Positions 5,939-59,016 of a stretch of 64,000 nt of DNA are shown here, piece by piece. Below the pieces are notes generated by a model. That model was given only the letters and a program-made list of their open reading frames with translations. It did not search any database and was not told the origin of the DNA. This stretch comes from Craspedostauros australis (taxonomy: Eukaryota > Bacillariophyta > Bacillariophyceae > Mastogloiales > Achnanthaceae), in contig JAMXDE010000005.1 of NCBI GenBank assembly GCA_026770025.1, positions 2,356,001-2,420,000 of the forward strand, read 5' to 3'. Every line of letters begins with the position of its first letter. Position 1 is the first letter of the stretch. A program made the position numbers and the translations under genes.

Positions 5939-8900
5939 TCAAACAGAGGCGATCCTGGCATCAGGACCCCCCGCACTGTTCGGCTGACTGACCCCGCTGT
6001 CATCGGACTTGGTTGGGGTTCCCGAGTCTCTGGGCGCCGGGATCATCCCAAGTAGTTTTGCATTCTCATTGAGATACATCCAGGTGTGCGCGTGGGGATC
6101 GGACAGGTTCGATCGCTTCTTCTGCGCGGGGATGTCGTTCATCGCTTGTACTGCTCTGGTCGAGGTGCAGGCACCCAACCATCTGCATGCCAGCTGCGCG
6201 AGTTCCGGGAACAGATTCTTGTTCAGCTTCCACCAAGCAATGGGGTCGGTGATGCGGCGGTAGGAACCGACGTTCGAGAAGTACCTGTCCACATTTTTCT
6301 CGCAATTCTCCTTGGTCTTGCTCTCTGCGGACGGCACGGTGGGTTCGGCGCTGTCCCCCCAGAACAATCCGCCCATGGTCGACGTCGTTCCCAGCCCATC
6401 GAGGGCCGTCGTGAGGCCCGTTGCGGGAGATGCTGATTCTCCCTCGGCTGCGTCTGTCTTCGCTGCCGCTTGAGCAGTGTTGGATTCAGCTGCGGCATCT
6501 TCGCTGAGTCGCACCAGCTCCGCGGCGAGCTGATCCTTGACTTCGGATCGCTGGCTACCGGAGATTTCGTGCATCCCGATCAGCCGTGGATCCAGCGGCA
6601 TGGTCCAGAGCGCGGACGACGTGTCCGCCAGGTAGAACTGCAGGTTGTTCGGGAACTGCTCCATCATGTCACCCTGAATATGCTGCAACTTCTCGATGGC
6701 GTTTGGGAACTGGAAACCGTTCGGAAACACGGCCGTGTCGTTGAAGTTCATCTTGGCGATCAGTCTTTGGATGCGACGCGAGACCAGCATGCAGAGACCG
6801 ATGGTGGGGTATTCTTCTGCCGAGAGAGTGTCGAGCGCATCCGCGAATGGTTGCACCACCTTGGCAAGCGAGGTGAAGAGGAACCATTCCTCCTCGGTCA
6901 GCGGTTCGATGTTGGGATCGACCCGAACCTCCTCCTTCTCGATGACGCTGTTGAGGGTCGTTTCAAAGTCCTTCAGTTTGGACATCTGCACCAACCTGAC
7001 GAACAGAGCCTTCGTGCTGATGGCGTAGTCGGATCCGTGCCCCAAACCCTCGAGGTCTGGTGGGCGTCTCGCATCCTTGGCCATGAAGCACTGCTGGTAG
7101 TTGCGTGCCTTGCCATCGGATCCGAGACGAACCAGGCAGGTGATGATCGCCTGCATCTTCTGAAGCAGCGGCTTGGTCGAACCCATCGTGATGGTACCCA
7201 AGACGATGTTGTTGATTCCAGTTACGATGCAAGGGACAATCATGGGTTGACGCGCATGCGCGGTGGCGCTGGTCGTCTCGGATGTTTCCGGCAGCGCGGC
7301 AAGAAGATGCGTGCAGAGGTCGTCACTTGGCGCACCAGCGAGCGTGATGAGCTGGATCTTGTGGATCGGGATCTGGTACAGCCGGATGGCGCGCAGGATC
7401 GGTTGGATTGTTAGCTTGATGTCGGCATCATCCGCCATCGCAGCGCTTCCGGATACCGCCCCCGAGACGGGGGAGATGGAAAGCGTGAAAGCGCGTCGTT
7501 GGAATGTGTCGGCGTCGATGGTGACAACGCGAACCGCCGCGAAATTGCCTGCGTTGACGGTCGAGAAGACTTCGAAGGACAGGGAGCAGGATGTTGCCTG
7601 TTGGACGAGCTCGACAATCTTCTCCCGGATGGAGATGCTGGCCGTGCGGGCCATGCGCCAGATCTTGGCGGGTGATGGCATCTTGTTGGGCATCCTACCC
7701 GCGGAGAGGAAGCTGACAGCCTGGTGAAGACCTGGTTCGCTCACGATGCTTGGGGAATGACCTGACTCCACGACCCATCGAAAGAAGAGGTTGTGCGCTT
7801 CGTGCATGATCGCGTTGGCGTCTTCGCTGGGGGACGACGCGCCGGCGTACTTTTTCTTCGGCATTGTGTGAGAGCGACCATTTCGTCTATCCGCCTTGAT
7901 AGTCGGCGAGTCTTCGTAGCCCCCGAAGCCGATGGCGTTGTGGCCACCATCATCGTCATTGTCGTCGTCATTCTGATACGGCATGCTGTAGCCTTCGTTT
8001 CTGAAGGTGACCCCTGGGGAGCGTCTGGCGGAGACGCTTGCGTTGCCTGCGGTACGGGCGGTCTTGTTGTACGACACGTAGGAAGAACCGGGAGACGACT
8101 TTCTCTTGCCTCTGGCACTGTTGTGTCCGGCAGCGGCAGCAGTGGGGCTTGCCTTGTTCTTCGCGGTGGCAGTTTCGCTGCCCGGCACGTATCCGTGCCA
8201 GCTGATCATGTGACGCGTGATGGTCTTGGAGGTTCCCTTGGAGTAGGAGAACTGGCACTTGCACTTGAGGCAGTAGGCAGCGATGGCGTCTTTGGACCTC
8301 CAACGCACCTGTCCCGGCGGTGGTTGGCTGATGGGTCCGGGTGCCACGAGCTTGATGTGCTCCCAGATGATGGGCTTTTGCTTGCGATCGGGGTCGTACA
8401 GACGCTCCGTGATGTCGGAGTCTGCATGTACAAATGAGGCATCGATTGCACAGTAGAGTGTGCATCGTAGAGTGTGTTGTGTGGCGTTGCGTTGTACGAG
8501 TATGAACGAGTGAGGACGCTGTGTCACATCCCAGTCCAAATGCATCCGAGCAATAGAGCGGACTGTGAATACTCTGCAACACACCAATTCAACAACAACA
8601 ACAACAACAACAACAGAACAATGAAAGACCGCAACACGAGATCCACTTACCACCTGAAATAATGAAGGACTTGCGTGCCAATCTGCCCGTCGGAGTTTGA
8701 ATACCACCAAGCCCCGCATCAGGACCCAGTTGCTGTCGCAGCTGCTGCTGAAGCTGAATGTGCTCGTGTTGCTGCGGCGTGTATATCGCAGACGGAGCAA
8801 CAGACCGCGTGGCCGAGGTCTGCTCGGGTTGAGGTGCAGCTACTGGCGTGGTTGCGACCGTGAGCAGCATCTGCGGTGGATCCGGCGATCTCATACCTTC

Positions 8901-10315: not shown

Positions 10316-13030
10316 ATGACACCCACAGCCAGCGACTCGGCCATGAGCAACGGAGGCGAGATGGCCTTGGCGTCGGATAATGGATACGAGAGCCCGACGC
10401 ACTCGCTGCGCTCGACGAGAAGCGTGACGTTCCCATCGGAGACCGATGATTCGCACAACTTCGAGCACCACAAGCACCCTCCGTCGCCTCCGCCGCCCAA
10501 GGTCGACAGCCCCAGCTTGCCGCACAAGAAGGCAGTCGCGAGGCTCTCAAGCGACGCCAGCTTCCGCTCCAAGAGCCTGCGTTCCAACCTCACGCGGGAG
10601 CAGCGCGATCGCAACCCGCTGGTGTACTACGAGGTCGTCAACACTCTGGGCGTCGGTTCCATGGGCTCCGTGGCCAAGGTCCGCAAACGATCCACCGTCG
10701 TGGGTGGCTCCGCTCGCAAGGGCTTCCGCGAGGCCGTCCGCAAGCACAAACGCAACAAGGAGTGCCTCAAGATACCCTTCATCGGCGGCATCTTCAGATT
10801 CTGCATCGACACCGAGCTCAAGCCGGAAGCCCCATCCCAGAGGGCCGCCGCCAACGTCAGCAGTTTGCGTTCCTCGGGCAGGCCCGGTTCGCTCAACACG
10901 TACTCCAACAACTCGCGAGACTCAAACATCACGGGCAGCGACAGGTACGCGCTCGGCAGCCTCAGCGATGCCTACAGCTACGACGATGCCGAGGTCGAGG
11001 CCAACGGCAGTCTCTTCGCCATGAAGTCCATCCATCTCAACCGCATCACGGACACCAGCTTCGTCGACGAGCTCAAGAATGAGATCGCCATCCTCAAGGC
11101 GTTGGACCACCCACACATCGTCAGGGCGATCGAGACATTCGAGCATCGCAACCAGATCTTCATCGTCACGGAAATGCTCAGCGGCGGCGATCTATATTCG
11201 AGGGATCCATATTCCGAGGCCGAGGCGGCGAGGATCGTCAGCTCCATCCTCAGCGCGGTGTCCTACATGCACTCCAAGAACGTCTCGCACAGGGATCTCA
11301 AGTACGAGAACATCATGTTCGTCGACGATTCTCCAAGGTCGCAGATCAAGCTCATTGATTTCGGTCTCAGCAAGGTCTACGGCGACAACACGCAACTCAC
11401 GGAAGGTGTGGGAACGATCTACACGATGGTGCGTCACTTTCACTTCTCCTTCTGGCGTTATCATTGCCACATGGTTGCATTGCATGTATTTCAACACACA
11501 CGACTACGATACTGACCTTTGCTGCTGCTGCTGTTAATATCAATCTCATCAAACCGCTTTTACGCATCTGCATCCACAACACGCATCATCCACAGGCCCC
11601 CGAAGTATTGCGTGGCAACTACTCGCATGCCGCCGATCTTTGGTCGATCGGTGTCATCGCATTCATGCTGCTATCATCGCAGATGCCATTCTATGGTCGC
11701 AAGAGGTGAGCGTTCTTCAGATTGTGTGTGGGCTGGTCGCGAGTATTGCGCTCTGCTCATCAAAGAACCATTCGATTTCAGTTTCTGGTTGTCAATATTG
11801 CAGCTCATTCGATTGTCTGATTGCAGTGTGATTGAGAAAGTGCTTGAATTTGAACTTGAGCTTTTGGGGTTTGTGAAGTGACTGGTATCTCAACATCAAC
11901 GTTTCCTGCCTTTTCGATTGGCATCTCACACATTCAAACCATCGCACTCCTGCTAATTTCAATGATAACAATTCTCTTCCCGATCGACGGCAGGAGACAC
12001 ATCGTGGAGCAGATTCTCAAGGGGCAGTTCGACTTCCGAGGACGGCGATGGAGGAAGATCTCGGATCAGGCCAAGGTCTTCGTGCAGGAACTGCTCGTGC
12101 TGGACCCGACGGAACGTGTCAACGCCAACGAAGCGTTTTCGCACACCTGGTTGAACAAACGATTTGCTGCCACGACGAGGGCTCCGTTGGCGGAGGAGGA
12201 AGACGAGGCCAGACAGGCGATGCATCGGTATGCTGGGTACACAAAGCTCAAGAAGATGGCGTTGATGGTCGTGGCGCACAAGTCCAGCACGGAGGAAATT
12301 GGCATCCTGCGTAAGCTCTTCCAAAAGTACGACACCCTCAAGGACGGATCCATCAGCTACGGAGAGTTTTCCAACGCGCTCGCCGAAAGCGGCTACCCCG
12401 AAAAAGATGTGTCCAGCATGTTCGAGGCCCTTGATCTCGACGGATCCGGTCGCATCCGATACACCGAATTCCTTGCGTCCACAATCGAAGCGCAAGGCGC
12501 CATCAGCGAGGAGCGGTTGGCGGAAGCCTTCGATCGGTTGGATTCCGATGATTCCGGATACATCTCCGCCGAGAACCTGGCGGAGATCCTGGGGAACGAC
12601 TTCCCCAAGGCAGATATCGACGCAATCATTGGCGAGGCCGATCTCACGAAGGATAACCTCATATCGTACTCCGAATTCCTTGCCTTGTGGGAGAACAAGC
12701 ACGAGAATGAGAGAGAGCAGCAGCTGCTCGCATTGGGCCACCCAGACCACAGCAGCTTCGATTTGGGAGGCGAGGACTATGGTGGACTGCTGAGCGCAGC
12801 TGAGGCGCGGGCAACATTTGTCACCACCAAGCACAAGACCAGCAAGCACGTCGTATTCAATGACGAGGTGGTCGACATGGCAGCCCCTGAGCCGTGAGTT
12901 ATGTTCCTTCGTGGTTTGATTGCAATGGCGACAGTCGGTTCCCAATCGCTATCTGTCCTATTTTGGATGTCTCGGCAGGTGCCAATTCTCGGATGACTTT
13001 GCATTCCATCAACCGAACGTGCCGAATTAA
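10316..13030 (+). CDS. Calcium-dependent protein kinase (CDPK)
   Basis: Exons 10316-11428, 11596-11705, 11994-12893 and probably 12979-13030 give 724 aa. The first three joins keep frame (TYTM|APEV, GRK-R|RHIVE). The kinase domain has the glycine loop LGVGSMGSV (about 111-119), the Lys of FAMK (about 237), HRDLK (about 325-329), DFG (about 348) and APE (372-374). A polar insert of about 110 residues lies between the glycine loop and the Lys, a place normally spanned by about 15. Four EF-hands follow at about 520, 554, 590 and 623. Only the second ([12 protein letters not shown]) is fully canonical; the others have Leu at position 3, Asn at position 12, or Asn in place of Gly at position 6. 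The family couples calcium to Ser/Thr phosphorylation. A GTGAGT donor at 12894 and a CAG at 12976 support a last exon ending in NVPN and TAA; without it, translation stops at 12897. Confidence 0.88.
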
Positions 13031-18805: not shown

Positions 18806-21800
18806 ATGGTCTGCTCCGTCAGCAACCTCGGTGATGCTGAGACGATCCTGGCGGTGGCGGCTGCGCTTCTGGCTGCCGTCCTCGCATCGGCGATCTTCAC
18901 ATCTGCGACACCCATCGAGCAGCTGGGTGAGTGTCATTCGCGTCCTGCTCTTGCCATAACCATGGAATAGCGAAGAGAGGAGTTGGAGATGAGATGACAT
19001 GAGTGGAGTGGAGTGGAGTGGAGTTGGAGCATTGAGTTTGGAGAGATTGTTCAAGAACGTAGAATACCAGAATTGACAGGCTGCTTGACTTTCGTTTCCC
19101 TTTCCGCACTTGTGTCTCATCCTTCTCATCTTTCATCATCTATTCATTCGCTCACTCATTCATTCATCGTGTGAATCCCCATCATTACGAACGCAGGTAA
19201 GCGTTCCAGTGGAAGCAACCTGGAGCAGTGGTTGAGCTCCTACTACAACGAGGCCATCGGCACTGCAGGATATGACGCCATCCTTGGTGCCTTTGCGCCT
19301 CCCGTTCGTTTCGTCATCCACGTCGCCACGTTGCTCATCGTATGGGTCGTCACCATCGTCGTGACTGCGACAGCGCTCTCGGCCTTTTCTGGCATCGATG
19401 ACACCGACGAGGCATGCATCAATGGCTTCCCAGCCATCACCCTCCCCTGCCTCGTCGCAGCCTGCGCCACATACTTCTCTGTCATGAATCACTTCCACCA
19501 CGTCCTGCCAGGCGTCTCCCTTCCCGGAGGCCCTCGTCCGCACAAGATTCAACGCAAGCCGCACTGGAAGGATGGAGTCCGGGAGTTGAGCAACAGAACG
19601 ATCGCCAAGTGGCGCTGTGCTGTTGCGCAGGATTCGCACAATGTCACACACGCCAAATTCGCCTCCGCCGATGCATTCACTCCCCTCTCCGGTGAGCCAT
19701 GCGGTCGCCAGATCTGGACGACTGCGCCGCGGTCCACCACGAACGTCAAAGATCCTGACACTGACTCCAACCAATCCAGCGACATGGTCAAGGTCGAGAA
19801 GCCGAACGTGCCTCTCAAGAAGCAGTCATCCTTCCTCGGCGAGATCTTCGGTTTTGGATCGGGTGCAAGAGACGAAGGAGAATCTGAGGATGGTCTTGAC
19901 GAGAAGGAAAAGAAGGCGCGCAAGCTGGCTCAGGGTGGGCGTGATTACTTCGGTTTCAACCCGAGCGCCAATCCCAACAGCTGCGACATGATCTTCCGTG
20001 CCAAGCAGATTCGTGCCTACATGGATTCGGGCGAGGAGACACCGTCGTTGGACGAAGCGCCCAAAACACCACGTGAAGCCATGAAGAAGGGAGCGCACTT
20101 TTACAGCATGCTTCAGACCGAAGACGGACACTGGGGCGGTGACTACGGCGGTCCTCACTTCCTCATGCCCGGTCTCATCGTCGCTTGGTACGTCATGGGC
20201 AAGCCAAAGGGCATCATCAATTCAAAGCAGGCTCGGTTGATGAAGCACTACATCCTGTGCCACCAGCAATCGGACGGTGGTTGGGGAACACATCTGGAAT
20301 CCCCATCCACCATGTTCGGATCCACCTTGATGTACGTCGCGCTTCGATTGCTCGGGACACCTGCAGATCATGCGGCCAGCGTCGCGGGCCGAGCCTTCCT
20401 GCTCGAGAATGGCGGCGCGGTGATGACAGCATCGTGGTGCAAGTTTTACCTCTGCCTCCTGGGCTGCATGGAGTGGGAGGGACACAACAGCGTGCCACCC
20501 GAGATGTGGATGCTCCCCAACTGGTTCCCATTCCATCCAGGTCGCATGTGGTGCCACGCACGCATGGTCTACCTCCCCATGGGATACCTCTACGGATCGC
20601 GATTCGTCTACGACAAGGCCGAAACGGACCCGCTCATCGCGGAGCTGCGAAAGGAGCTGTACAAGGAGCCCTATGAAACGACGCGTTGGTCGAAGACGCG
20701 CCATTTGGTGGCGCCCATGGACAACTATTCCCCCATCCCATGGGTCATGAAGACCGTGCAAGACATCCTGGCGCGGTACGAGAGCTGGTTCATCTTCCGA
20801 CCGTTCAAGAACTTTGTTCGCAGCTACGGATTGGACTTCTCCCTGGAATACATGGATGCCGAAGATTTGCAAACCAACTACATCAACATCGGACCCGTCA
20901 ACAAGGTGCTCAACATGATCTCCATCTTCCATGGTACGTTCTTGCGTGCATGCATGCATATGTGTGGAAGTGTGCGTGCTTGCATAAAAGTGCCATGCGG
21001 CGACCAATTGGATGGTGACAAGCGTACTCTACGTATTGAGAGTTCATGTTCATCGAAAAGGACGTCTCCCATTTGTTCGTGGCGCAACCCTATCTCACTC
21101 CTGAACTTGTACTCTGTACTCTTCTGAAATGCCAATCAACTTCAACGGCGCTATGCCATTCCATCAACATCTGTTTCGAATCTACAGCATCGGAAGGCAA
21201 CTTGGATGATCCACGAGTCGTCAAGCACATGATGAGATGCCAGGACTACCTGTGGGTTGCAGAGGATGGAATGAAGATGCAAGGATACAACGGCAGCCAG
21301 TGCTGGGACACATCGTTCTGCATCCAGGCGATGCACGAAGCCGGAGTGCTCGATCAATTTCCCGAGGTTTCGAAGAAGGCATGGCAATACTTTGAGCGCA
21401 CCCAGATCCTGTCAACCGAGGTCTCCCAGGCCTCGCCAGCGTACAAATACGAAACCGGAGAGTTCCGCAACAAGTTCTACCGTCATATCTCCGAAGGTGG
21501 TTGGCCTTTCAGCACATCTGCCCACGGTTGGCCCATCAGCGATTGCACTGCCGAAGGTCTGAAGGCAAGTCTGTGCCTCCTTAAGTCCAAGACCATCAAG
21601 GAATGCCTTGGAAATAAGTCGTTGATTGACATTTCGACGGACCGGTTGGAGAAGGCAGCTAACATCCTGCTTTCGTACCAGAACGAAGACGGGGGTTGGG
21701 CGACGTACGAAAACAATCGCGGATGGGGATGGTACGAAGAGTTGAATCCAAGCGAGGCTTTCGGCGACATCATGATCGATTACTCCTACGTGGAATGCAG

Positions 21801-22428
21801 CATGGCCGCGCTGACCGGATTGGCAGACTTTCGTGATGTCTACCCTGAATACAGACCGCGCGAGATCCGCCACAGCATCGAGAAGGGCAAGGCATTCCTG
21901 AAGAGCGTCCAGCGACCCGACGGGTCATGGTACGGATCCTGGGCGTGCTGCTTCACATACGGCATTTGGTTCGGCGTGGAAGGTCTGGTCCGATGCGGCG
22001 AACCCAAGAACTCGGAGTGCATCCAGAAGGCCTGCAGGTACCTCGTGAAGCAACAGCGACCAAACGGCGGATGGGGCGAGGACTTCACGTCCTGCTATGA
22101 CAAGGAATACGCAAAGGATGGCATGAAGGACTACGGAGACGATGGCAGCGGCGTCGTCAACACGGCATGGGCCCTGCTGTCCCTGTCCTACGCTGAATAT
22201 GACGACATCGATGCGGTGCGCCGTGGTGTCCATTACCTCATGAAGCGACAGCTTCCCTCCGGTGACTTCCCACAGGAGGGCATCTCGGGCGTTTTCAATC
22301 GTTCCACCGGCATCACGTACACCGCCTACCGCAACGTGTTCCCCATGTGGGCCATCGGTCGGTGCCTCGAGAAGTTTGGGGATGATCCATTGGCTTTGAA
22401 GGTGGAGGCCAAGAGCGAGAGCAAGTAA
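18806..22428 (+). CDS. Oxidosqualene cyclase, cycloartenol synthase type, with membrane-spanning N-terminal extension
   Basis: Exons 18806-18926, 19197-20933 and 21188-22428 encode 1032 aa. Donors GTGAGT and GTACGT and acceptors CGCAG and TACAG keep frame. The enzyme folds 2,3-oxidosqualene into the first cyclic sterol precursor. The cyclase core starts at about residue 345 (DGHWGGDYGGP) and contains several QW-type repeats, DYLWVAEDGMKMQGYNGSQ, and the catalytic SDCTAE with Asp at about 738. The residues just before it read HGWPISD. The His and Ile match the positions I recall as His477 and Ile481 of Arabidopsis CAS1, which favours cycloartenol over lanosterol. Compared with plant enzymes (about 760 aa) there is an extension of roughly 230 residues with hydrophobic spans at about 13-33, 79-105 and 117-137, so the enzyme is probably anchored in the ER membrane. 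Confidence 0.93.
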
Positions 22429-47401: not shown

Positions 47402-48403
47402 TTTGGGTGTGGCAGTGACTTGTGGATTGTGGATTGCTGAAGTCCACACCGAAACCGATACGGTTGCGACCGACGTCCAGCGGATGACGGCGTCTTCGTC
47501 ATGGTCGATCCTTCCGCTTTCTGTGCGTGTGTGTTGTTCGTTCTGACGTACCCAAACTTCAACGAGGATCCGGTCCCACAGCAACAATGTGTTCGTGATT
47601 CAGCAGATCATCGTTTGATTTACGACTCAACGGAATAACTTGTATCTTTCCACACCGCAAAAGCGGAACGCGAGAAGAAACTCAAGCGTTCTCTTTTCCA
47701 AACCCGAACCAACACGCTTCACGAAGATTTTTGCAAATTTGCGCAAAAACCTCACACACAAGCACAACAAGCAACAAACGAAGAAGGAAGAAAGGAAGAA
47801 AGGAAGGAACAAAGCAACTCACCAAGAACTGAGGATACTCACGTGAGGAGCTCGTGCCGCAGACGATGTGAGAGGCAATCGAATCCAACGAGGTTGTGAC
47901 ACAACGCATCATTCCAACAGTGTCCGCATCAAGATTCCTGCGAGCGTCACAGTCGTGTGCCACCCGGATCCACATTCACATCCACTGACAATCGAAGACG
48001 GTGTCCGTCAGTATAGTGCCATTCATACTATACTCCCGCGTATCCTTACACACAGTAAGTCAGAATCTTGCCAGATTGTGAATGTGGGCCGTGACGTCTC
48101 AGTGCTGGGATACGCACATCGTGCAACATGGAGAAGAACGGAGCCGAAGTGCTTCGTCATGGATGGCGACCTCCTCGCTGATCGTTTCCGAGATGATGAG
48201 ACGCAAGTATTGGGCGCCTCAACCGCTCACCTCTTTCAGAAAGGATTGCCACTGATTGCCGTTCTTCCTTTCCCTCACTTCGTTGCCTCCTCTTGCTGCG
48301 TGTTCCTTCCAAACACCACATTCACGCACGGAACGTCCATGCGCAGATCATCCGTACCCACGAGCAATAGCACGCGCACTACTACAACAATCTTGTATCC
48401 ACG
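47402..48403. other. Divergent promoter region
   Basis: 1.0 kb between the PsbP-like gene (-) and the ankyrin-BTB gene (+). It should contain both promoters. An A/G-rich stretch (GAAGGAAGAAAGGAAG, about 47780-47805) is present. No gene is seen. Confidence 0.55.
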
Positions 48404-50101
48404 ATGTCATTCCTGCGTCGATCGATGTATGCGTGGACTCGTTCCTCCTTTGCGCACCACACAGGGATGCGTGCGAGCACACAGCGGGCATGGCCCAGCC
48501 GCGCAGGTGGACTGACGTGCCGAAATCCGCAACTTCCAAACGCAACATTCGCCACGATGTCGCGGATAACCAACGGAGGGGTGCTGGACGCAGCTGGCAC
48601 AGGAGATCTGAACACCATCAGCATGTGGGAGCAGCAGAATCCGAAGGTCTCCATCAGCAGCATCAAGGATCGTCAGCAGAACACGGTGTTACATCTCGCG
48701 TGCTCGGAGGGGCGCTTGGGCGTGGTCAAGTACCTCGTGGGATCTTGCAAGGCAAACGTCAACGCACGGAACAATGCGGGCTTCACCCCGCTGCACCAAG
48801 CATGCAGCTTGGGCCATTTCGCGATCGTCAAATACCTGACGGAATCATCCAAGGCGGATGTCAACATCCGCAACAGCGACGGCCACACGGCCCTCCACTT
48901 CGCCTCCTCGGACGGCCATTACGGCATCGTCCAGTACCTCATCGAATCTTGCAACACGAACGTCAACGCTCAAGATCTAGGTGGCGCTACCTCGTTGCAT
49001 CTTGCGTGCCAATACAACCACTTTGACATTGCGAGATATCTGGTGGAGTCGGGCCACGCGAACGTCAACGTTCAGGACGCCGATGGCAACACGCCGCTCC
49101 ACAGCGTCTGCTCGGAGGCCAACGTGGAGATGGTGAAGTTCCTGCTGGGATCGTCATCGACAGACGTCACGATTCAGAACAAGTATGGTCAGACTCCGTG
49201 GGAGTTTGCGAAGGCAGAGGAATGCGATGAAGTCGCCAGATATTTCTCGATTCATCTCCAGACCCTGCTGGCGCAAAATCACCACGGCCTGAAGAGCAAT
49301 GCCGACATCTTCAACGACTTCTTGGAGACGAGGCAGACCAACATCAACCGTGATCGACTCAAGGCCCTCGAAAGCAAGATGATGTCGGATGTGATCTTCT
49401 TGGTCGGTACAGGTGCGTCACAGCGGTCGATCGAGGCAAACGGCGCCATCATGCTGGCGACCGTCCCATCCATCAAGGCCATGATTCTTTCTGCCATCAG
49501 CGACGAGGAGGCAGCAGGATCTTCGCTTCACGACACGGACCGCACAACCATTGCGCTTCCGCATTTCGATCCGTCGCATGTCGAATGCGTACTCAAGTAC
49601 ATCTACGCCGGCGATGCGTCATTCATCCACAACAGCACCATCGCTCAGCAGGGCGACCTTCAGCAGCTCTTGGTCGTGGCGGACCATTTTGGAGTTTGGA
49701 AACTGAAGCTGATCATCGAAGCGCTCCTGACGACTCAGTATCTGTCGAAGGACGTCCTGGTGGAAACGTTGCTCTTTGCCGATGCGCACGGTTGCCTTTT
49801 GCTGAAAGATGCGGCCGTCCGCCTCGCGTCGAAGGACGTGGCTGCGTTGATGGATCATCCGCGCTTCAGCGAGCTGTTTGGGCATGCGGAGTTGATGGAG
49901 GAGATCACTCGTCATCGGCAAGGCGAAGCACCAAACGACGGCATCGATGATGAGTTTTCCGAAATGTCGATGATGAGCTTGTACAAAATGGTAGATGAGC
50001 ATTCAGGCGTCGGTGTGGACTCGTACATGGATCGCCCCTCGTTGCTGCGATTCATTCGTTCGACCATGTCGGAAAGCACCGTGAAAGAGGCATGGAGCTG
50101 A
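48404..50101 (+). CDS. Ankyrin-repeat BTB/POZ protein
   Basis: 565 aa from ATG 48404, or 514 aa if translation starts at ATG 48557 (MSRITNGG); the first 51 residues are basic and low complexity. Six ankyrin repeats lie at about 70-300, with a very regular unit such as NAGFTPLHQACSLGHFAIV and NSDGHTALHFASSDGHYGIV. After a linker, a BTB/POZ domain spans about 330-450 (SDVIFLVGTG, SIKAMILSAI, VECVLKYIYAGD, LLVVADHFGVWKLKLIIEA), with a BACK-like helical part to about 510. Proteins with this layout commonly serve as substrate adaptors for Cullin-3 ubiquitin ligases; that role is inferred. No intron is needed. The broken ankyrin gene at 14770-15700 is a probable relative. Confidence 0.88.
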   Translation: MSFLRRSMYAWTRSSFAHHTGMRASTQRAWPSRAGGLTCRNPQLPNATFATMSRITNGGVLDAAGTGDLNTISMWEQQNPKVSISSIKDRQQNTVLHLACSEGRLGVVKYLVGSCKANVNARNNAGFTPLHQACSLGHFAIVKYLTESSKADVNIRNSDGHTALHFASSDGHYGIVQYLIESCNTNVNAQDLGGATSLHLACQYNHFDIARYLVESGHANVNVQDADGNTPLHSVCSEANVEMVKFLLGSSSTDVTIQNKYGQTPWEFAKAEECDEVARYFSIHLQTLLAQNHHGLKSNADIFNDFLETRQTNINRDRLKALESKMMSDVIFLVGTGASQRSIEANGAIMLATVPSIKAMILSAISDEEAAGSSLHDTDRTTIALPHFDPSHVECVLKYIYAGDASFIHNSTIAQQGDLQQLLVVADHFGVWKLKLIIEALLTTQYLSKDVLVETLLFADAHGCLLLKDAAVRLASKDVAALMDHPRFSELFGHAELMEEITRHRQGEAPNDGIDDEFSEMSMMSLYKMVDEHSGVGVDSYMDRPSLLRFIRSTMSESTVKEAWS

Positions 50102-52132
50102 TGTACGAGTATGATGTTACATGGCTCTCCGTGGTTGTGGCAGTGTTGCAGGGGCGCACGCGCGGAAGGTTTCGATGTGTGGTGATGTCAACGGAATGGC
50201 AGGAGGTGAAGATCACAAAGTCGGCGACACGAAAGCAGACCACCTACTCTTCGCAGAGCAGAGTACAAATAGTATTGGTCTAAAAGTACAAGTGTAGGCA
50301 TGGCACACTACATAAAATGCTTTACTTGTTGGAAAGCGTGGCATGTGTAACACAGAATTGCAGAATACAAGGGAATGTCAGGTTCACTCCATCATGTAAT
50401 ACTTACGATCACCACATGCAGCATTTCAGGCACACTGCCCGAGCAGGAACGTGACGAAAAGACAGGTGACACACGGATCTTTGGTGGAAGAGCGACTTCT
50501 GCTGGTGTCCTTGTATCCGTGTCGCGAATGATAGCCCAGCGCGGCCCACTGCTTCTGCTGAGCGTGATCTGAACCTTCGCGCTCTGAATTGCTGTGGTCT
50601 CTTGGCGTCCTGGTGCGACCATGTACCGAAACACTGAGTCAGGAAGTCCTCGTGCTCGTGAATGCATCTGATTTCTTCTGTAGATCATGTGCCGTCTGTG
50701 GGTATGAAAACGAAGGATGATGTGGATTTTGATGCAACTCGAACGCTTCCATCGCCAAGGTGTTGTCGTCTCCTCAACGCTGCCCAAGAAAAGTGACCTT
50801 GGCCAACCTTCGCCTGATCCTTGGCAGCGGCAACCACCGAACTCGCGTCTCCAGTCCTTGTGCGTGTTCGCGCCTTTTTGGGCCCGAGCAATCCTCCGCT
50901 CGGACACGCGTGTCGTCATACCAAAGAATGGCTCGCTTCAGCTCTTTGTGTCAGGGGGCGTTGCCGGAAACACGACGAGGTGGGTTGATAGAGTTGCCCT
51001 TATTCTCTGTCTCTCTGGAGGATGTCATTATTCGAAAGTTCACTATTGGTAGAGAGTGTAGCAGAGTCAGAGTACACGTATTCGTATCTGGAGGTGCAAA
51101 CGGCAGTTGCGTAGGTTCGTGATCTGGGTACAGTGCCTCCCTTTCGCTCTGTACACTGTCGCTCGGTGGCTCCGTGGAATCCTTCAAGGTTGAGTGCGAG
51201 ACACCAGTTGCCTAGTGTCTCTTCTTGATGTTCTGCCTTGTTCGCTTCCACAAACATCGCCTGGACAGCGTTGCAAAGCGCCTTTGTGGACAAGGACGTC
51301 GTTGCCACCTTCAAGTCGAGGTCTTTTGCCCCTTCGCACCATTGACAAACTCCATAGAAAGGTGACTCGAGCAGGCTTGGTGATTCATGTGGAAGACCAT
51401 GCTCAAAATGTCTGTCCACTCTGAATTGCCCAACAGCGTACGAGTTACCAATACTCGCAGAGCGCTGGTACGTGGCACGAGAACTCGTTCGGAAGCAGAG
51501 ACAAGAGCGGAGGAATTCCTGAGCAAAAAAGGGATGACTTCACGAGTACGCGCACGATCTTGTTCTTCTTCCATGAAGGTTGCTGTTTTCGTCTGCGGGT
51601 GTCACCATCTCCAGTCCTCGGTTCTGTCGCCCATTCGTTGCTTGGTTTCTTTTGCATTCGATGGGAGGCGGGAGGAGCGCCCACAGCCTGGTGAAGGCGT
51701 GTGAGTTGCTTTGCGTGGAGACCTTGCGCTATACTCGCAGGTCCATAGCGTGTCGCGTGTATTCATCGTGCGGAGCTTTGAACGTGTTCTCGCATCATCG
51801 CCCATCGCCCATCGCCCATCAGCCGTCACGACAGGAACAGCAAGTCTACTCGCTTCACAGCGGCAGTGTTGACCATGTCCACCTCCCGCCGCGCGCCCCA
51901 TTCCCAACTGTTCTTTAGCCTCATCACGACCAAGGTCAAGACTGTCCATCACCAGACAGAATTCGTCAGCCTTGCGGCCACCTCCAATCGGAAACCAAGC
52001 GCCGCTCCAGTCATGGCTGTTTTGCGAAAGCTGGTAAGGTAAAATGTCTCGCCTGTGATTTGCAGTGGTGGCGGTGATGTCAGACGACCTGACCTTACTC
52101 CCTAAGGCGAATCGGGGTTCCTTTGGACCCGT
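50102..52132. other. 2-kb gene-poor region left of the transposon
   Basis: No recognised gene. On the minus strand, about 51000-51419 encodes a protein-like stretch (KALCNAVQAMFVEANKAEHQ), and 51602-52456 is a long frame that crosses the left inverted repeat. Neither has a family I know. Both could be decayed mobile-element coding sequence. Confidence 0.45.
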
Positions 52133-52164
52133 GGGAACCGCGGTAAAGACCATATAATGGTCGG
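52133..52164 (+). repeat. Left terminal inverted repeat core
   Basis: It pairs with 58453-58484 (31/32). It contains the small palindrome GACCATATAATGGTC. Weak similarity, mostly transitions, seems to continue outward for some tens of bases. Confidence 0.75.
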
Positions 52165-53100
52165 ATTTTGCTTTGCTCACGCTTGAGGCGTGTTGTACGG
52201 TTTTGGGATCTGTCGAGTCAAGCACTAATGGGATTACTAGAGCACGCCTTTCCCGTGTCAACATGACGTTGCGCTTATTTACGTACGTGCTCGACATGTC
52301 CTGCACTGTGTGCCAATGCCAATGACGTCCGCTTCGCGCTCGTTCCACCCCTGTCGTGTCTGTTCCAAGACATGCCAATTTCCAGACCCACGACATCGCA
52401 GCGCTGTCTTCTTGCCAATATGGCAGTCCCGTACGACAGCCTCGCTTTCCGCACAAATCTTGATTCGCAACAGCCGTTTGCGTTCTTCCGCTTCCTGCTC
52501 GTGGGGCTCCTGTTCACACCACGTTTGATTCAGGCGAAGGGCTCCCAACAATATGCGCCATACCTCGTGCTCCAGAGACTCATTGGCTTTGATTCGCCAA
52601 CTGCAGAACTCAACACGAGAAAAGGTCACATTCTCTTTGTTCGTGCCTGCCTCAGCGTCGCATGACTCCCCAATGTTCCTCGCGATGTTGACCGCATTCT
52701 TTGCTGATGACCCATGGCGCTGGCACGCCAACCGTTGTGGACAGTGGTGGCGACCACGAACCCGTCCCTCCGCTCTACGTCGTTGTGGTTGGGTGGCCAA
52801 CATGCCTTTCTGATGTTGCCCTTCGTTTGTCCATGACGTAAACCGGGACTCTCTTGGGCAAGCGTTGGTGTCTCCTCGTCTCCTTCGTCCTCCTGGACTG
52901 GCTATTCAGTGCGTCCCACAAGCAACCACAACAAGGTAGTCCTTCAAACCTCCAACAGCAAAACATAGCACTAAATTGACTACCCCGTTATCAGGACACC
53001 CTAACGAAACTCACTCAAACAGGCAAGGGGGGCATGTGGGATGAACCTTTTGTGCTTGCTAAAGTTGGGCTATTTGTTACTACTAAGTGGGACGGGCTAA
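52165..53100. other. Transposon interior, left subterminal region
   Basis: 936 bp between the inverted repeat and the transposase stop. A minus-strand frame (52279-52803, 174 codons) is protein-like in part but has no known domain. No tandem repeat is visible. Confidence 0.45.
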
Positions 53101-54257
53101 TTAGTGTGTCTGCTGTTCATCTGCTTGGGCGATGGCACGTTCGCGTGCTTCTTGCATCGCGACAACCACGTCAAACGAGGGGAAACCGTTGCTCAATTCA
53201 ATTTGGGTGAGGATGGCAACCGCGTTGAATGCAAGGCGATGCTTGTCGACGTGGTGCCGCCACTTCAGGTGCATGCATTGCCAGTGCTTGATTCGCCTGT
53301 TGACCGTTTCGTGGCGGCACCGCATGATGCCATCCGCGCGAAAAGTTGGGGGAAACACACAAGGGTCCCCACGGTATCCGGCATCTGCGACGACGACTTC
53401 GTGTTGCACTAATTTCGGCTTCAGGCCCAGGCGGAAGATCGAAAGATCGTTCAACAGACCACACGGGAAAGGCCCATTCGCCCAAACAATCTCGCCAGTA
53501 GAAATCGCAACAGCCAACTCGTAACGCAAACCGGCAGCGCGAAATTTGAACGAGTACCACTTCTTGTCAAACGGTTTCGGTTCGGTGATTCGCATGTCGG
53601 TCCCGTCAACAGTGACAAGAGCTTTTGCGTTGTGACTTGCGCCAACGAAACGACGGTTCCAGACGATCTGTCAATTGGAGCGGTACCAGGAAAAAGAACA
53701 TGTGTGAGTGAATGGAGTGAAAATAATTTAGTGTCGTAGTTCGGGTGTGCGAATTTATTAGTACTTACAATGCGGTCCTTAACGGTTTCAACGGCTGCCA
53801 TCATCAGCCACATCCACTTGCGAAGTGTCTTCGCGGAACACTTGCACACTGCAGCGAGCGCAGTCTCAGACACGTACAGATGAAGAAACGCGCACGTCCA
53901 AAGGAGATGTTTGGGTTTGGCCCCGCGCGGGAGAGCTCGAGCGCCTACGAGCTCGTTCCACAAGATGTGCACGATGTCAGGATGCGTTCCGAACACAGAC
54001 GCGAACTGTCGCAACGATTCCACGGAAAGATCGTTCGCAAGCATGCCCCTTGGGCGAGACCCAATCAGTCCGAACCCCAAAACAGCGAAAGTTCCGCGTG
54101 GGAGTAACATGGTTTGTGTTCTTGCGAATTTGTGAGCTCTTTGTTCCTCTTCAAATATCAAAATGAGGCGAAAACCAACAATGTCAAAAAGTAGCCGTTG
54201 TAATAGTAGAAATAGCGCGCAAGCAAACTGCAACTTGGTAAGAGGAGGAAACAGCAT
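53101..54257 (-). CDS. HARBI1-like DDE transposase
   Basis: Exons 54257-53769 and 53667-53101 (donor ATT|GTAAGT, acceptor TTGACAG, 101-bp intron) encode 351 aa without a stop or frameshift. The N-terminal half has helix-turn-helix-like text (ETALAAVCKCSAKTLRKWMW). The catalytic domain supplies the DDE triad: TVDGTDMRI (first Asp), VVVADAGYRGD (second Asp) and RHETVNRRIKHW (Glu), with FKFRAAGLRYELAVA between. That order and spacing are those of DDE_4/HARBI1-type transposases, which cut and paste elements with short inverted repeats. ATG 54257 opens the frame; ATG at codon 50 (MLLPRGTF) would give 302 aa and may be the real start, since the first 49 residues are hydrophobic and atypical. The intact frame means the element could be active. 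Confidence 0.85.
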
Positions 54258-54779
54258 TTCTCCGTGAACTCTGCGTGACTCCTGGTAGGCCAGTTGTTGT
54301 CTCCTTTTGCCGTTGGGGAGCTGCTCTCATGATGCGCTACCCAGGGCGCAAGACAGCAGAGAACGCAATAAACGCGTACTATTGTCCCACGACGCCGCTG
54401 TCAAGGCGCTTCATCGTGTCCAAGATGCCAGAAACGACAGAATTCAACGGACCAATACGTCAGATTCTATTCTTCGTCGCTGAATATTGTTATGATCCCT
54501 GCGTCTTCATGACAGCATGGGGGCTGTCATGGACGAACGAGTGCGCTGTGCCCTTTGTACGCGTTTGCAAGCAAGGCACGCTGCGGAGGGCGGAGAAACG
54601 ATGTTTCGAGCAGGAGTCATCCTCTGTGAAGTCTCATCCTTGCCAACACAGTACTGCATTCTACTACTACTCCATTCCCGAGTGGACTTCCACACAGTCA
54701 GAAGATAATTGATCACCAGTCATGATTACGCTAAACCGAACCTCGCAACGCATTTGAAATCCTGCCCGATGTCGGGACT

Positions 54780-55130
54780 AGGTCGTGTTCACGTCGCACT
54801 CATGTCGCGTTTACGTTGCGTCCACATGCGTCCGTGTGGAGTTCGCGTCGTGCTCTCGTCGTGTTCATGTCGCGTTTACGTTGGGTGCATGTCGCGTGCA
54901 ACTCACGTTGACGTTGCGTGCATGTTGCGTTGGCGATGCGCCCAGGTCGTGTTCACGTTGCGTCCATGTTGCGTCAACGATGCCTCCATGTCGCGTTCAC
55001 GATGCGTGCATGTTGCGCTCACGTTGCTTTCGTGTTGCGCTCGCGCCGTGTTCACGCCGTGTTCGCGTCGCGTTCGCGTTGCGCTCGCGCCATGTTCACG
55101 TCGCGCTCGTGTGACGTCGATCGCACGTCG
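54780..55130. repeat. Degenerate minisatellite of GTTCACGTCGC / CGTTGCGTCCATG-like units
   Basis: About 350 bp made of 9-18 base variants of GTTCACGTCGC, GCGTCCATGTTGCG and GTGTTCACG. All three + frames stay open over most of it, as expected for repeats lacking TAA/TAG/TGA words. Subterminal or internal repeat arrays in transposons can bind the transposase; here that is only a possibility. Confidence 0.75.
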
Positions 55131-55496
55131 TTACCACTCCCTTTTGGTGTCCATCTCTGCAAGATCAACATGTCACATACGACACTATAACTTATAGGAA
55201 TTTGTCGCAATGCACTACGTTCCTAGTATTCAAAACATGCAGAGTACAACTCTCATGCTAATTGTGATTGTAAATGCTGTAACCAATCAACAGCAACCAA
55301 ATATTCTGAATGGTATCGACGGTATGCTGTTATCCATCGAAGCTTATTGTAGTTTATGCACTATTTCGCTGTTTACAACACAACTTGACTCGATAACGTA
55401 GCATAGTACAGATTGAGCGCTTGTCACAGCGACAAATCTGCGGTAATTGGATGCTCATTTGGTGCTCATTTCGTGTCGATGTGTTCTCTGTGACTG

Positions 55497-55640
55497 TCCT
55501 GTGCCGTGTCTCCGGACGTCCTGGCTCGTGTCTGGTGCGATTCTGTGCCGTGTCTGAGGACGTCCTGGCTCGTTTCTATCACGATTCTATGTTACGCCCA
55601 CGAAGATCCTGGTTCGTGTCTGCGGTTATTCCATGTCGTG
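55497..55640. repeat. 44-bp tandem repeat, about three copies
   Basis: Units begin near 55497, 55542 and 55586. Each contains a version of TGTGCCGTGTC, GGACGTCCTGGCTCGT and CGATTCT; the first two copies are much closer to each other than to the third. A partial fourth may start at 55630. Confidence 0.75.
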
Positions 55641-56345
55641 TCGGTGTCTATTCCGATGCTTGACGTTTAGAGGCACATGGTGCAGCGCACGCGAGTCAAA
55701 CATCGGTGCTCCAACGGCTCCCCAGATACCAGCTCCCCACGTCGTGCGCCATGAAGCACATGGTGAAAAGTCAACGAGGAAGACAAGTGGCCGGCGAATA
55801 CGCCGGGCGAGTGTCGCACACGACAGAAGAACCATGTGCCTCCACAATCGTCGACTCACCGGAGCCGTCCTTTTGCGTACGTTGAGCGTTGAGTCTAGAC
55901 TAACGGTAGGTATACACTTATATGCCTAGGGATATAGTATAAGATGCTAATAGTAACATATATATATAGTAGATGCATACATTCATTCTAAGTACAGCTA
56001 GAGCAAGCCATACTGAACGTGGGATCGACCAGGCAAACAGCATGCGTTGGAAACTAAATGGGCAGAGTAGAGCTCTACACCACACGTGTTTTGTACAGTG
56101 TTTCTCCTGCCGATGTTTCGCGTTGACTGTTACCACGCTGCGACACGTTGATTGATGGCTCCCTCATCCTCTCAAGCACGGATGCTGCACGTCACAAGCG
56201 GCATGTTGATCACGCGCGGCAACCTCTACTCTGCGGAATGCAACGAAGTCAAGATGCAGTCTCATCTCATAATCGCCTTGGAGTCGACATTGACAGACGT
56301 GTACTTGTTGCTGATCCGCCATTCAACAGTAAGTGCCACTGCAAC

Positions 56346-58284
56346 ATGCCAAGAAAAGCTGCTACGGAGAAACAGGACAGTCCCGATGGGGTCGCATGGA
56401 ACGAGTCGCTGTACCCGCAGATCCGCCAACTCAGGGCACAGCTCGAGAGCGGTGTCATCCCCATGGATAAGCCCGCAAGACTCGTTTGGAGCGAGAACGG
56501 CGACTTGGCGTTCTTGTCAAGGCGCAACTTTGCTCGCAACCTGCGCAATTTGCGCAATTCCGTGAAAAGAAGTCGCGCCAGGAAAGAAGCCAAAGCTGGT
56601 ACGTCACTGCGTGTTTGTGAACCAGACACATGATTTCTGAATGAACAAATTTGAAACCGTTACTAACCCGTTATCCAGTGCGAATGGACACCAAAAACTC
56701 TCCGAACGTTTCTGATCTTGTCGCTAATGCCGTACAATACAAACAACAATTCGACAACACCATCGCAAAAGTATCAACCCAGAAACCCGAAGACGCGAAG
56801 CAAACGATGGACACATTCTCTCGTTTGGCGTACGCCTCCCCACCAACCGGCGAAACCGAAGTTGGGACAACTGCCCGTCCGTCTGCCCCACCAATCCATG
56901 CGCACGTCGCGGCACCTGTCCCCACCCATCTGCCACCTGTCCCCACCAATCCGCCACCAACCCCCAGACCTGCATACGACGCGGCGAGCATGATGACTGT
57001 TGCTCCTCCTGAGCCCTCGTCTGTTCCTGTGGCTTCTCCTGCTGCTGTTCGTCCTGCCTCTGCTACCAGCATGCTCGTGAACAATGCCGTATCTGGGACA
57101 CCCTTCCAAGAGGGTCCGAGTCGTGCGCAATCCATTTCTGATTGGATGAACAAGAACAGCCTGGTCTTCTTACCTGCTGTGCGTCACGTGTACTCTCCTC
57201 AAGGCCATGGCGAGGTGCTTGAAATTACTTTCGAGTTGCCAGGTGGGACTTGCTACGGTGACGTCAAAGCGTCAATCAAGGAGCAAGGACGCGTTTTGGA
57301 GGTGGGGTTGAAGCAGAACCACGAACTCGGATCCACTGTAGCTACGGACAAGGAGCTGCTTGACCGCCTAAACGAGAAGCTGCCTACACACTTCAACATG
57401 CGCTCTTTTCAGGGACAACGCGAGCGGGGCGAGTCGTATGCGCTTGCTGTCCGCAGGATGTGTCGCGGACATCCCCAACCCTACCGCATTCACAGGGAGA
57501 TTCTCCCCATCCAAGTGAGTGATCGTTTTGAGATGACCACTGATCATGCGATGCACGGCGTCGACTTCCTCAATCCGGCCGTCAATCTCAATGACCGTGA
57601 CAGCGAGGTGGAGGCTGATGCGCCTCTCTTGATTGTTCGGTTGGTACCGGTGTACTCCGCGAATCCAGTGGTGCACAGCGCCACCAACTTGGCACGCTAC
57701 GGGCGCAAGGCGGAGAATAGAACAACTAAGCATCCCGCGGGCATTACAATGGATGGGGATGATTACTCCTCGCTTGGGGAGGACGAAGTCACATTTGTTC
57801 CGTCCTCTGCTGCTCCTCCCCCGTTTCCACAAGGCCGCCGAGGAACCGGATCCGGAGAATGTTTCGAGGTAAGCCCCATTGATGCCACACTCGCCTCTTG
57901 CGCATGACATCAACTTGCACACTCACACCTGCTTTCTTTTTGTTTCCAATTGGCCAGTCTGATCCTGCGCCATCTCGTGTGTCCGTGAACAGGATGACAG
58001 TCGCTCGTCGCGCGCGCCGTTCTGCTTCTCGCAAACGTGCTCCCCGTGCCATGGCATGCCGTTCCAGCCCAGCGGCTGTTCCTTCTGTCCCCGTCTCGGT
58101 CGTGATGCCGCCTCCTGTCCCCTCCTGCGCCCGCGCACCGCGCATCGCTAAAACGAAGCGTAGAAAGCGTGAGGCTGTGTTGATCGACCTCCACATGGAC
58201 AGCGATAGCGACAGCGATTTCGAAGTCACACCAGCACCTGCGAACTTGAAAAAAGGCGATGACGACAGCACAGAGACCGAGTGA
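56346..58284 (+). CDS. Transposon accessory protein of unknown family
   Basis: Exons 56346-56598, 56679-57868 and 57958-58284 (donors GTACGT and GTAAGC, acceptors TCCAG and GCCAG) encode 589 aa with frame kept at both joins. Residues 1-85 are basic and helical (WNESLYPQIRQLRAQLESG, RRNFARNLRNLRNSVKRSR), suiting nucleic-acid binding. Residues about 115-240 are Pro/Ala-rich. Residues about 245-450 form a folded domain I cannot name; part of it (ITFELPGG, DVKASIKEQGRVLEVGL) recalls the beta-sandwich of small heat-shock/alpha-crystallin domains. The C-terminal exon is Arg-rich, then acidic (DSDSDSDFEV). It lies opposite the transposase between the same inverted repeats, so a role in transposition, replacing the usual Myb-like partner, is inferred. 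Confidence 0.65.
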
Positions 58285-59016
58285 GACTATCCCGACCACC
58301 CCTCAACACACGAACAAGAATAACACTATTAACGAATAACTCTAATCACCATGATCACACTAGGACGATTTGTTGTCTACGGTAGTGCCTTCTAGATAGT
58401 CTAATTTGTTGCAACGGATTACTTGGACTACTATTGGAGTCCCATCGGCAAACCGACCAATATATGGTCTTTACCGCGGTTCCCGTGGACTCGTGATAAG
58501 TGACATGAGGCGCGGTAAAACCAGAAAATGCTCAGGCAGTCCGAACTCCGCAAACTGTGAAACTGATGGCACCAAACATCAGCGTCGCCTTCTCCATGCT
58601 CGTCTCCCACACGTGCTCGTGCAGGATGCCAGGAACAAACCGGAGACCTGGATTTGTTCTGAGCTTTTGCGCCTTCGTGGCAGCATCACAATTAAGCTAC
58701 TATTCAGCAACACGAATACGAGCGTGTTCACATCTTTGGCTCGTGGAAGACTCCAGCGCAGATTGGCAGAAAACAGGCGAGGATGACAACAGCGCATGAA
58801 TACGGCTACTTTGAGCTTTGCGTTTGCGCTTTGTGATGTCCGGTGGCAGTGAGTCGTACAGCATGTATTGCACAGAAACTGCGGAGAAAGGCACAGGATC
58901 TCCAGCTGGCTCCTTACCTGCAGCTCTCTCATAAAATCTGCATCGCAGCAATCAACAAACCACAAGTCAGCACGAATTTGCACAATAGCAGCAACACCAC
59001 AGACAACACTTTGACA
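58285..59016. other. Transposon right end and intergenic
   Basis: It holds the right inverted repeat (58453-58484). A second inverted copy of its core lies 3' of it: GGTCTTTACCGCGG at 58467-58480 opposes GCGCGGTAAAACC at 58510-58522, so the end can form a hairpin. No gene is called before 59017. Confidence 0.6.
58453..58484 (-). repeat. Right terminal inverted repeat core
   Basis: Reverse complement of 52133-52164 with one mismatch. Confidence 0.75.

Follow-up and report, generated by a model that had tools for sequence, protein, structure and literature searches.

A young two-gene PHIS transposon in the diatom Craspedostauros australis with 4-bp target duplications, mostly CNNG, and an orphan partner gene

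The DNA considered here is a stretch of 64,000 nucleotides from the diatom Craspedostauros australis (contig JAMXDE010000005.1, positions 2,356,001 to 2,420,000; henceforth the window). At 52134-58483 it contains an intact transposon of 6,350 bp, a member of the PHIS superfamily by virtue of its terminal inverted repeats (TIRs) and of a transposase placed by its DDE_Tnp_4 profile match. I propose, with a probability of about 0.85, that this is a cut-and-paste element whose TIRs are recognized by its transposase, that it is inserted through 4-bp staggered cuts mostly at CNNG, that its second gene provides a co-factor, and that it has moved recently. The proposal is carried by what can be read from the letters of the genome: ends, target duplications, copies, open frames, purifying selection, and the co-occurrence of the two genes. 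Judged by its duplication, the element is not PIF/Harbinger proper. The original prediction had called it Harbinger-type, which stands insofar as it is an intact PHIS DDE transposon with two genes, and falls insofar as PIF/Harbinger proper is meant, given a duplication of 4 bp, mostly CNNG, and a partner with no Myb/SANT match.

The inverted-repeat arms (52133-52167 and 58450-58484) are 35 nt long and 94% complementary, with a single mismatch in the first 32 nt, in agreement with the earlier count of 31 matching bases. The outermost base of each arm is part of the 4-bp target duplication, CGTG on both flanks (52130-52133 and 58484-58487), so the element proper is 52134-58483 and not, as had been predicted, 52133-58484; the inverted repeat is real, and only its outermost bases belong to the target. 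The left TIR, GGAACCGCGGTAAAGACCATATAATGGTCGG (52134-52164, plus strand), agrees with the right TIR (58453-58483, minus strand) at 30 of 31 bases. In the assembly searched (74.8 Mb in 90 contigs, where the window is C3:2356001-2420000), this 31-base piece has 32 matches with up to 3 mismatches, as against 0 for the reversed control, and all 32 sit at the ends of the window element or its relatives. The repeat is thus specific to these elements and not a common unrelated sequence. Miniature inverted-repeat transposable elements bearing this TIR were considered and rejected, the 32 matches being ends already known. Close copies of the transposase share these ends, while more distant families have their own, as expected of separate families.

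The duplication was read in 46 elements with both ends. Of these, 37 have a transposase match and 9 belong to a 4.7-kb class described below; a window-subfamily copy on C78 was left out of the count, as only its left end lies within the 7.4 kb fetched. An exact 4-bp duplication flanks 45 of the 46 (36 of the 37 and all 9), with no match longer than 4 bases when lengths up to 8 were tried. When the pairs were re-dealt in 2000 shuffles, 4-bp identity arose in a mean of 6.2 and a maximum of 15 of 46. CNNG describes 43 of the 45 duplications, which comprise 13 different words, CAAG being the commonest (11). The two exceptions, TGTG on C13 and ATAG on C2, are repeated in all four bases. A 3-bp duplication was rejected: no pair fits it, and none is TWA.

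Then there is the evidence of the copies. Relatives with the same ends are dispersed genome-wide, and nine of them, including the window element and L039-L046, form a subfamily of uninterrupted copies of about 6.3 kb, each in different flanks and 95.1-99.9% identical to one another. The transposase frame is open in all nine and the partner frame in eight, so that eight have both genes open; the partner of L043 is frame-broken. On C34, C7 and C64 both ends are present within lengths of 10-22 kb, presumably split by later insertions. Two members of a sister subfamily, L048 and L049, differ by 0 mismatches and one gap column over 6,092 aligned bases and again lie in different flanks. Copies that differ by 0, 4 and 11 mismatches over 6.1-6.35 kb were seen in different flanks. 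Near-identical copies with open frames in different flanks bespeak recent movement, as had been suggested from the window alone, and that movement may be ongoing. The family is young.

Both genes are under purifying selection. When the window copy is compared with five others, the ratio of nonsynonymous to synonymous divergence (dN/dS) comes to 0.09-0.31 in the transposase gene and 0.25-0.30 in the partner gene. Synonymous divergence (dS) is unevenly spread over the two genes. In transposase exon 2 it is 0.19 for the window subfamily against L051 and 0.22 for L048 against L051; in partner exon 2 the same two comparisons give 0.91 and 0.07. On the simplest reading, recombination or gene conversion has probably swapped transposase segments between subfamilies.

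The transposase is encoded on the minus strand by two exons, 54110-53769 (114 codons) and 53667-53101 (the DDE domain and the stop codon). Here and in the partner gene, exon borders were set by GT/AG splice sites and open frames rather than by transcripts; both genes read open only once the predicted introns are removed, as befits a eukaryotic host. The frame of 302 aa is complete. Residues 134-267 match Pfam DDE_Tnp_4 over positions 1-156 of 158 (E 8.6e-7; 29.1 bits, where the curated cut-off is 24.8), and the residues D135, D209 and E234 are invariant across five aligned sequences, the catalytic E234 being assigned from its motif and its invariance. The earlier claim of a complete frame with DDE residues is confirmed, and the protein would presumably be the catalyst of transposition. 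The spacing between the second D and the E is 24 residues, which is short for Harbinger. A search of PDB with the transposase gave two chance-level matches only (E 0.16 and 0.53).

The partner gene lies head-to-head with that of the transposase, on the plus strand. Its three exons encode a basic N-terminal module (56346-56598), a conserved core (56679-57868), and a basic and acidic tail with the stop codon (57958-58284), together a complete frame of 589 aa, uninterrupted as predicted. A Pfam scan found nothing significant (best E 0.12; exon 1 alone, 0.032). Myb/SANT and YqaJ were unmatched at the profile level, where a diverged fold would escape, and the same scan of partner pieces from L094, L048 and L051 gave no match, Myb/SANT included. 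No relative was found in PDB by sequence or profile, nor anything in NCBIfam with three pieces scanned, partner exon 2 among them. A single-sequence structure of the core had a mean pLDDT (predicted local distance difference test score) of 29 and was discarded. Myb_DNA-bind_4 had 0 matches over the genome, and as its 14 controls had 0 too, this result is no evidence of absence. A search of four loci picked up the basic N-terminal module, weakly (E 0.004), in a more distant family, that of L094.

The two genes do travel together. Of 150 transposase matches listed, 65 are at least 57% identical (the 85 more distant were left out); a partner match lies within 7 kb of 58 of these and within 25 kb of 63. 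From the other side, 58 of 74 partner matches have a related transposase within 7 kb and 67 within 25 kb, where the chance of such proximity at 7 kb is about 1% per gene. Most likely the partner assists the transposase as a co-factor in DNA binding or delivery. A search of viral contigs for relatives was fruitless: 41 stretches matched partner patterns and 128 matched transposase patterns, with 0 confirmed by tblastn.

I propose that the 302-aa transposase recognizes GGAASCGCGGTAAA ends, excises the element, and would reinsert it mostly at CNNG. Its cuts would be staggered by four bases, a geometry suggested by the duplications, and repair of the gaps would leave the 4-bp duplication. The divergently transcribed 589-aa partner takes the place of the Myb/SANT protein of classical Harbinger elements and would serve as DNA-binding or delivery co-factor.

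The length of the duplication might be disputed. Insertion at CNNG leaves one and the same sequence whether 4 bp are duplicated and the ends are GGAA...TTCC or 2 bp are duplicated and the ends are GGGAA...TTCCC. In 43 of 45 cases, then, the data would serve equally well a 2-bp NN duplication within a preferred C-NN-G, in the manner of ISL2EU at A-AT-T (PMC4482050), and when NuwaII posed the same ambiguity, the shorter duplication was the one chosen (PMC4482050). Only insertions at non-CNNG targets decide. Genome-wide, three ends have a base other than G before GGAASCGCGGTAAA. One of them (C9:1553821, preceded by C) is unpaired and uninformative; the other two belong to the paired elements on C13 and C2. 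TGTG stands on both sides of the former. The latter proved to be two nested elements once two further ends were read; its right flank is ATAG, and the 4-bp model predicted ATAG on the left before that end was read as gATAG followed by GGAAG. The first base is thus repeated as well, and a 2-bp duplication would require that each of the two elements, alone among the paired ends fitting the pattern, had acquired a matching terminal mutation, which is very improbable. The duplication is accordingly taken as 4 bp. It is a shade harder still to believe that the duplication or the partner was misread and that the element is plain PIF/Harbinger: it does have a DDE_Tnp_4 transposase, two genes and short TIRs starting with G, yet not one pair has a 3-bp or TWA duplication and the partner lacks a Myb/SANT match.

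That segmental duplication, and not transposition, produced the copies is scarcely credible for the window subfamily. At least one block does appear to have been duplicated with its surroundings: the C40 and C50 elements are 99.8% and 100% identical in the 1.5-kb stretches fetched at their two ends, for which reason they are left out of the duplication counts. Segmental duplication is likely there. Copies of the window subfamily, in contrast, start and stop at the TIRs, have differing flanks and copy-specific duplications, and share no flanks among the nine copies with at least 500 bp of flank read; segmental duplication is rejected for them. An alternative view of the partner is that it is no co-factor but shields the element from its host, by countering silencing for example, or faces the host in some other way. 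No DNA-binding domain is recognized in it, and among the extra proteins of PHISTA are a TET/JBP dioxygenase and a third one that lacks Myb/SANT (PMC12730594), which implies that other partner roles exist in the superfamily. Against this, the partner occupies the place of the Myb/SANT partner and travels with the transposase, and its basic module can be discerned even in a distant family. A host-facing role is unlikely, though less so than the other alternatives.

Several points weigh against the proposal. The sole pair without a duplication is on C3, with ends 29 kb apart and flanked by CAAG and CCTG; it is probably two broken copies. The choice between 4 and 2 bp hangs on two informative insertions. 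The highest dN/dS of the transposase, 0.31 against L039, is based on very few changes (dS 0.005). An empty site was not seen: joined flanks, compared with the fetched loci and with no others, gave no second copy below a 99.5% identity filter. As to the co-factor role, the searches for a protein family and a PDB relative of the partner came back empty, and its predicted structure was unusable.

PHIS groups are sorted by their duplications: TWA, AT in A-AT-T, none, ANT, CWG, and TNA in C-TNA-G (PMC4482050). The window family's duplications match neither TWA (PIF/Harbinger), nor CWG (NuwaI), nor C-TNA-G (NuwaII); they disagree as well with those of Pangu (ANT), Spy (none) and PHISTA (TA), and the family has neither the AT duplication nor the YqaJ match of ISL2EU. 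With PIF/Harbinger it shares a DDE_Tnp_4 transposase, a second gene and TIRs, but that group has a 3-bp TWA duplication, a Myb/SANT partner in most autonomous members, and a mean autonomous length of about 4.1 kb (PMC4482050), which the window element, predicted to be larger than most, exceeds. NuwaI likewise has a PHIS DDE transposase, a C...G-anchored target, TIRs starting with G, and two genes; it differs in its 3-bp CWG duplication, its Myb/SANT partner, and in being reported from animals only (PMC4482050). NuwaII also has a C...G-anchored target, C-TNA-G, and TIRs starting with GG, but it has a Myb/SANT partner and a duplication with T.A inside, whether of 3 or 5 bp not being decidable (PMC4482050).

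In a more recent account, Harbinger-related elements make duplications of 0, 2 or 3 bp, to which PHISTA adds TA (PMC12730594). PHISTA, a PHIS transposon within the Nuwa lineage or close to it, resembles the window family in having an additional protein that is not Myb/SANT, and differs in its 2-bp TA, in the TET/JBP gene of some members, and in its hosts, rust fungi. Harbinger elements of Ectocarpus, likewise two-gene elements of a protist lineage, fall into ANT and TNA groups, with genes tail-to-tail rather than head-to-head (PMC12477816). Harbinger transposases have also been described in elements that lack obvious TIRs and have a putative 6-bp duplication; their role there is called unclear (PMC3627910). 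A 4-bp CNNG Harbinger was not found in the titles and abstract beginnings of the open-access literature; Repbase may have an entry.

The bacterial IS5 family, some members of which make 4-bp duplications, consists of prokaryotic insertion sequences whose ends and targets are different. Its DDE transposases are related to those of PHIS elements (PMC4482050).

The CWG duplication that defines NuwaI was found in a sister family in the same genome, represented by L094, whose transposase is 62% identical to that of the window and whose partner core is 27% identical. Its TIRs are GGAGGYGCGGTMAT, with 3-bp CWG duplications in all five pairs read, a sixth (on C12) having been left out as one end was not found. 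CWG and CNNG in related families of one genome indicate that the C...G anchor has been kept while the spacing differs by one base. Within a CWG-family element there is a (TG)n run of about 90 copies (L094:295-475). The CWG-family end CTTGGGAGGTGCGGTAAT recurs every 5,942 bases on C16 (at 2659, 8601, 14543 and 20485), resembling a tandem array of a long unit, with similar spacing on C45. In the L095 family no ends were found; at L095:958-1220 the near-palindrome CGGATAAGAAATAATCTTATCCG recurs at about 60-bp spacing beside another Harbinger-type transposase. The genome has at least 150 DDE_Tnp_4 matches, all those listed being above the cut-off, and the stock of PHIS transposases beyond the families studied is large and varied.

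The 4.7-kb class comprises at least 14 TIR pairs 4.6-4.9 kb apart (among 100 of 103 places listed), for example C8:2011420-2016137, C49:151829-156546 and C58:141199-145912, with a further pair on C15 that has a variant left end. In the 14 pairs, the left 260 bp or so are 79-80% identical to the window element. No transposase, partner or DDE_Tnp_4 match falls within them among those listed (150 of 353 transposase candidates and 150 of 227 DDE_Tnp_4 candidates), where a distant transposase could escape. The class is probably non-autonomous and mobilized by the transposase of the window family. On C52, a 10.6-kb pair with a 61% transposase match and a 27% partner match, relatives of the CWG family, looks like a 4.7-kb-class element with a CWG-family relative inside.

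The window element does carry its own repeat arrays, as had been claimed. One, at 54787-55109 between the divergent genes, has a period of 11 bp (also 22, 33 and 44), and another, at 55499-55588, a period of 44 bp. Arrays of 11-bp period with other units lie between the genes of L048 (L048:3277-3742), which is about 70% identical overall, and those of L051 have periods of 11 and 12/23 bp (L051:3273-3742). As a guess, such phased repeats could be binding sites for the partner or could put a bend in the upstream region that the two genes share. The stretch 52279-52905 (minus strand) was considered as a third gene and rejected: its AFT match is weak (E 0.015, below the cut-off) and that stretch is just 50-58% identical to the sister subfamilies, so it is treated as non-coding. 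Elsewhere in the window, a 966-aa open frame at 5942-8839 (minus strand), with a weak hAT dimerization match (E 7.2e-4, below the cut-off), is perhaps another transposon. Host-like open frames lie at 10316-12894, 19175-22425 and 48371-50098; their domains, in order, are a protein kinase then EF-hands, oxidosqualene-cyclase-like domains in two frames, and ankyrin-BTB. An Rfam scan of the window gave no match.

The 4-bp duplication, its one-base difference from a neighboring related family, and the conserved orphan partner look new. It is an even bet that they mark a further PHIS group, one that split from its CWG sister with the stagger lengthened by one base (perhaps from 3 to 4) and the anchor kept. 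If so, the orphan partner would represent a separate solution to what Myb/SANT and YqaJ proteins do elsewhere in PHIS. Published work uses the target duplication to distinguish these groups (PMC4482050); how long it is depends on the geometry of the strand-transfer complex. The CWG and CNNG families, in one genome and with transposases 62% identical, form a clean pair for finding the residues that set the stagger. The conserved partner offers a test case for the little-understood second protein of such transposons, and with copies so young the element is a candidate for testing by direct assay.

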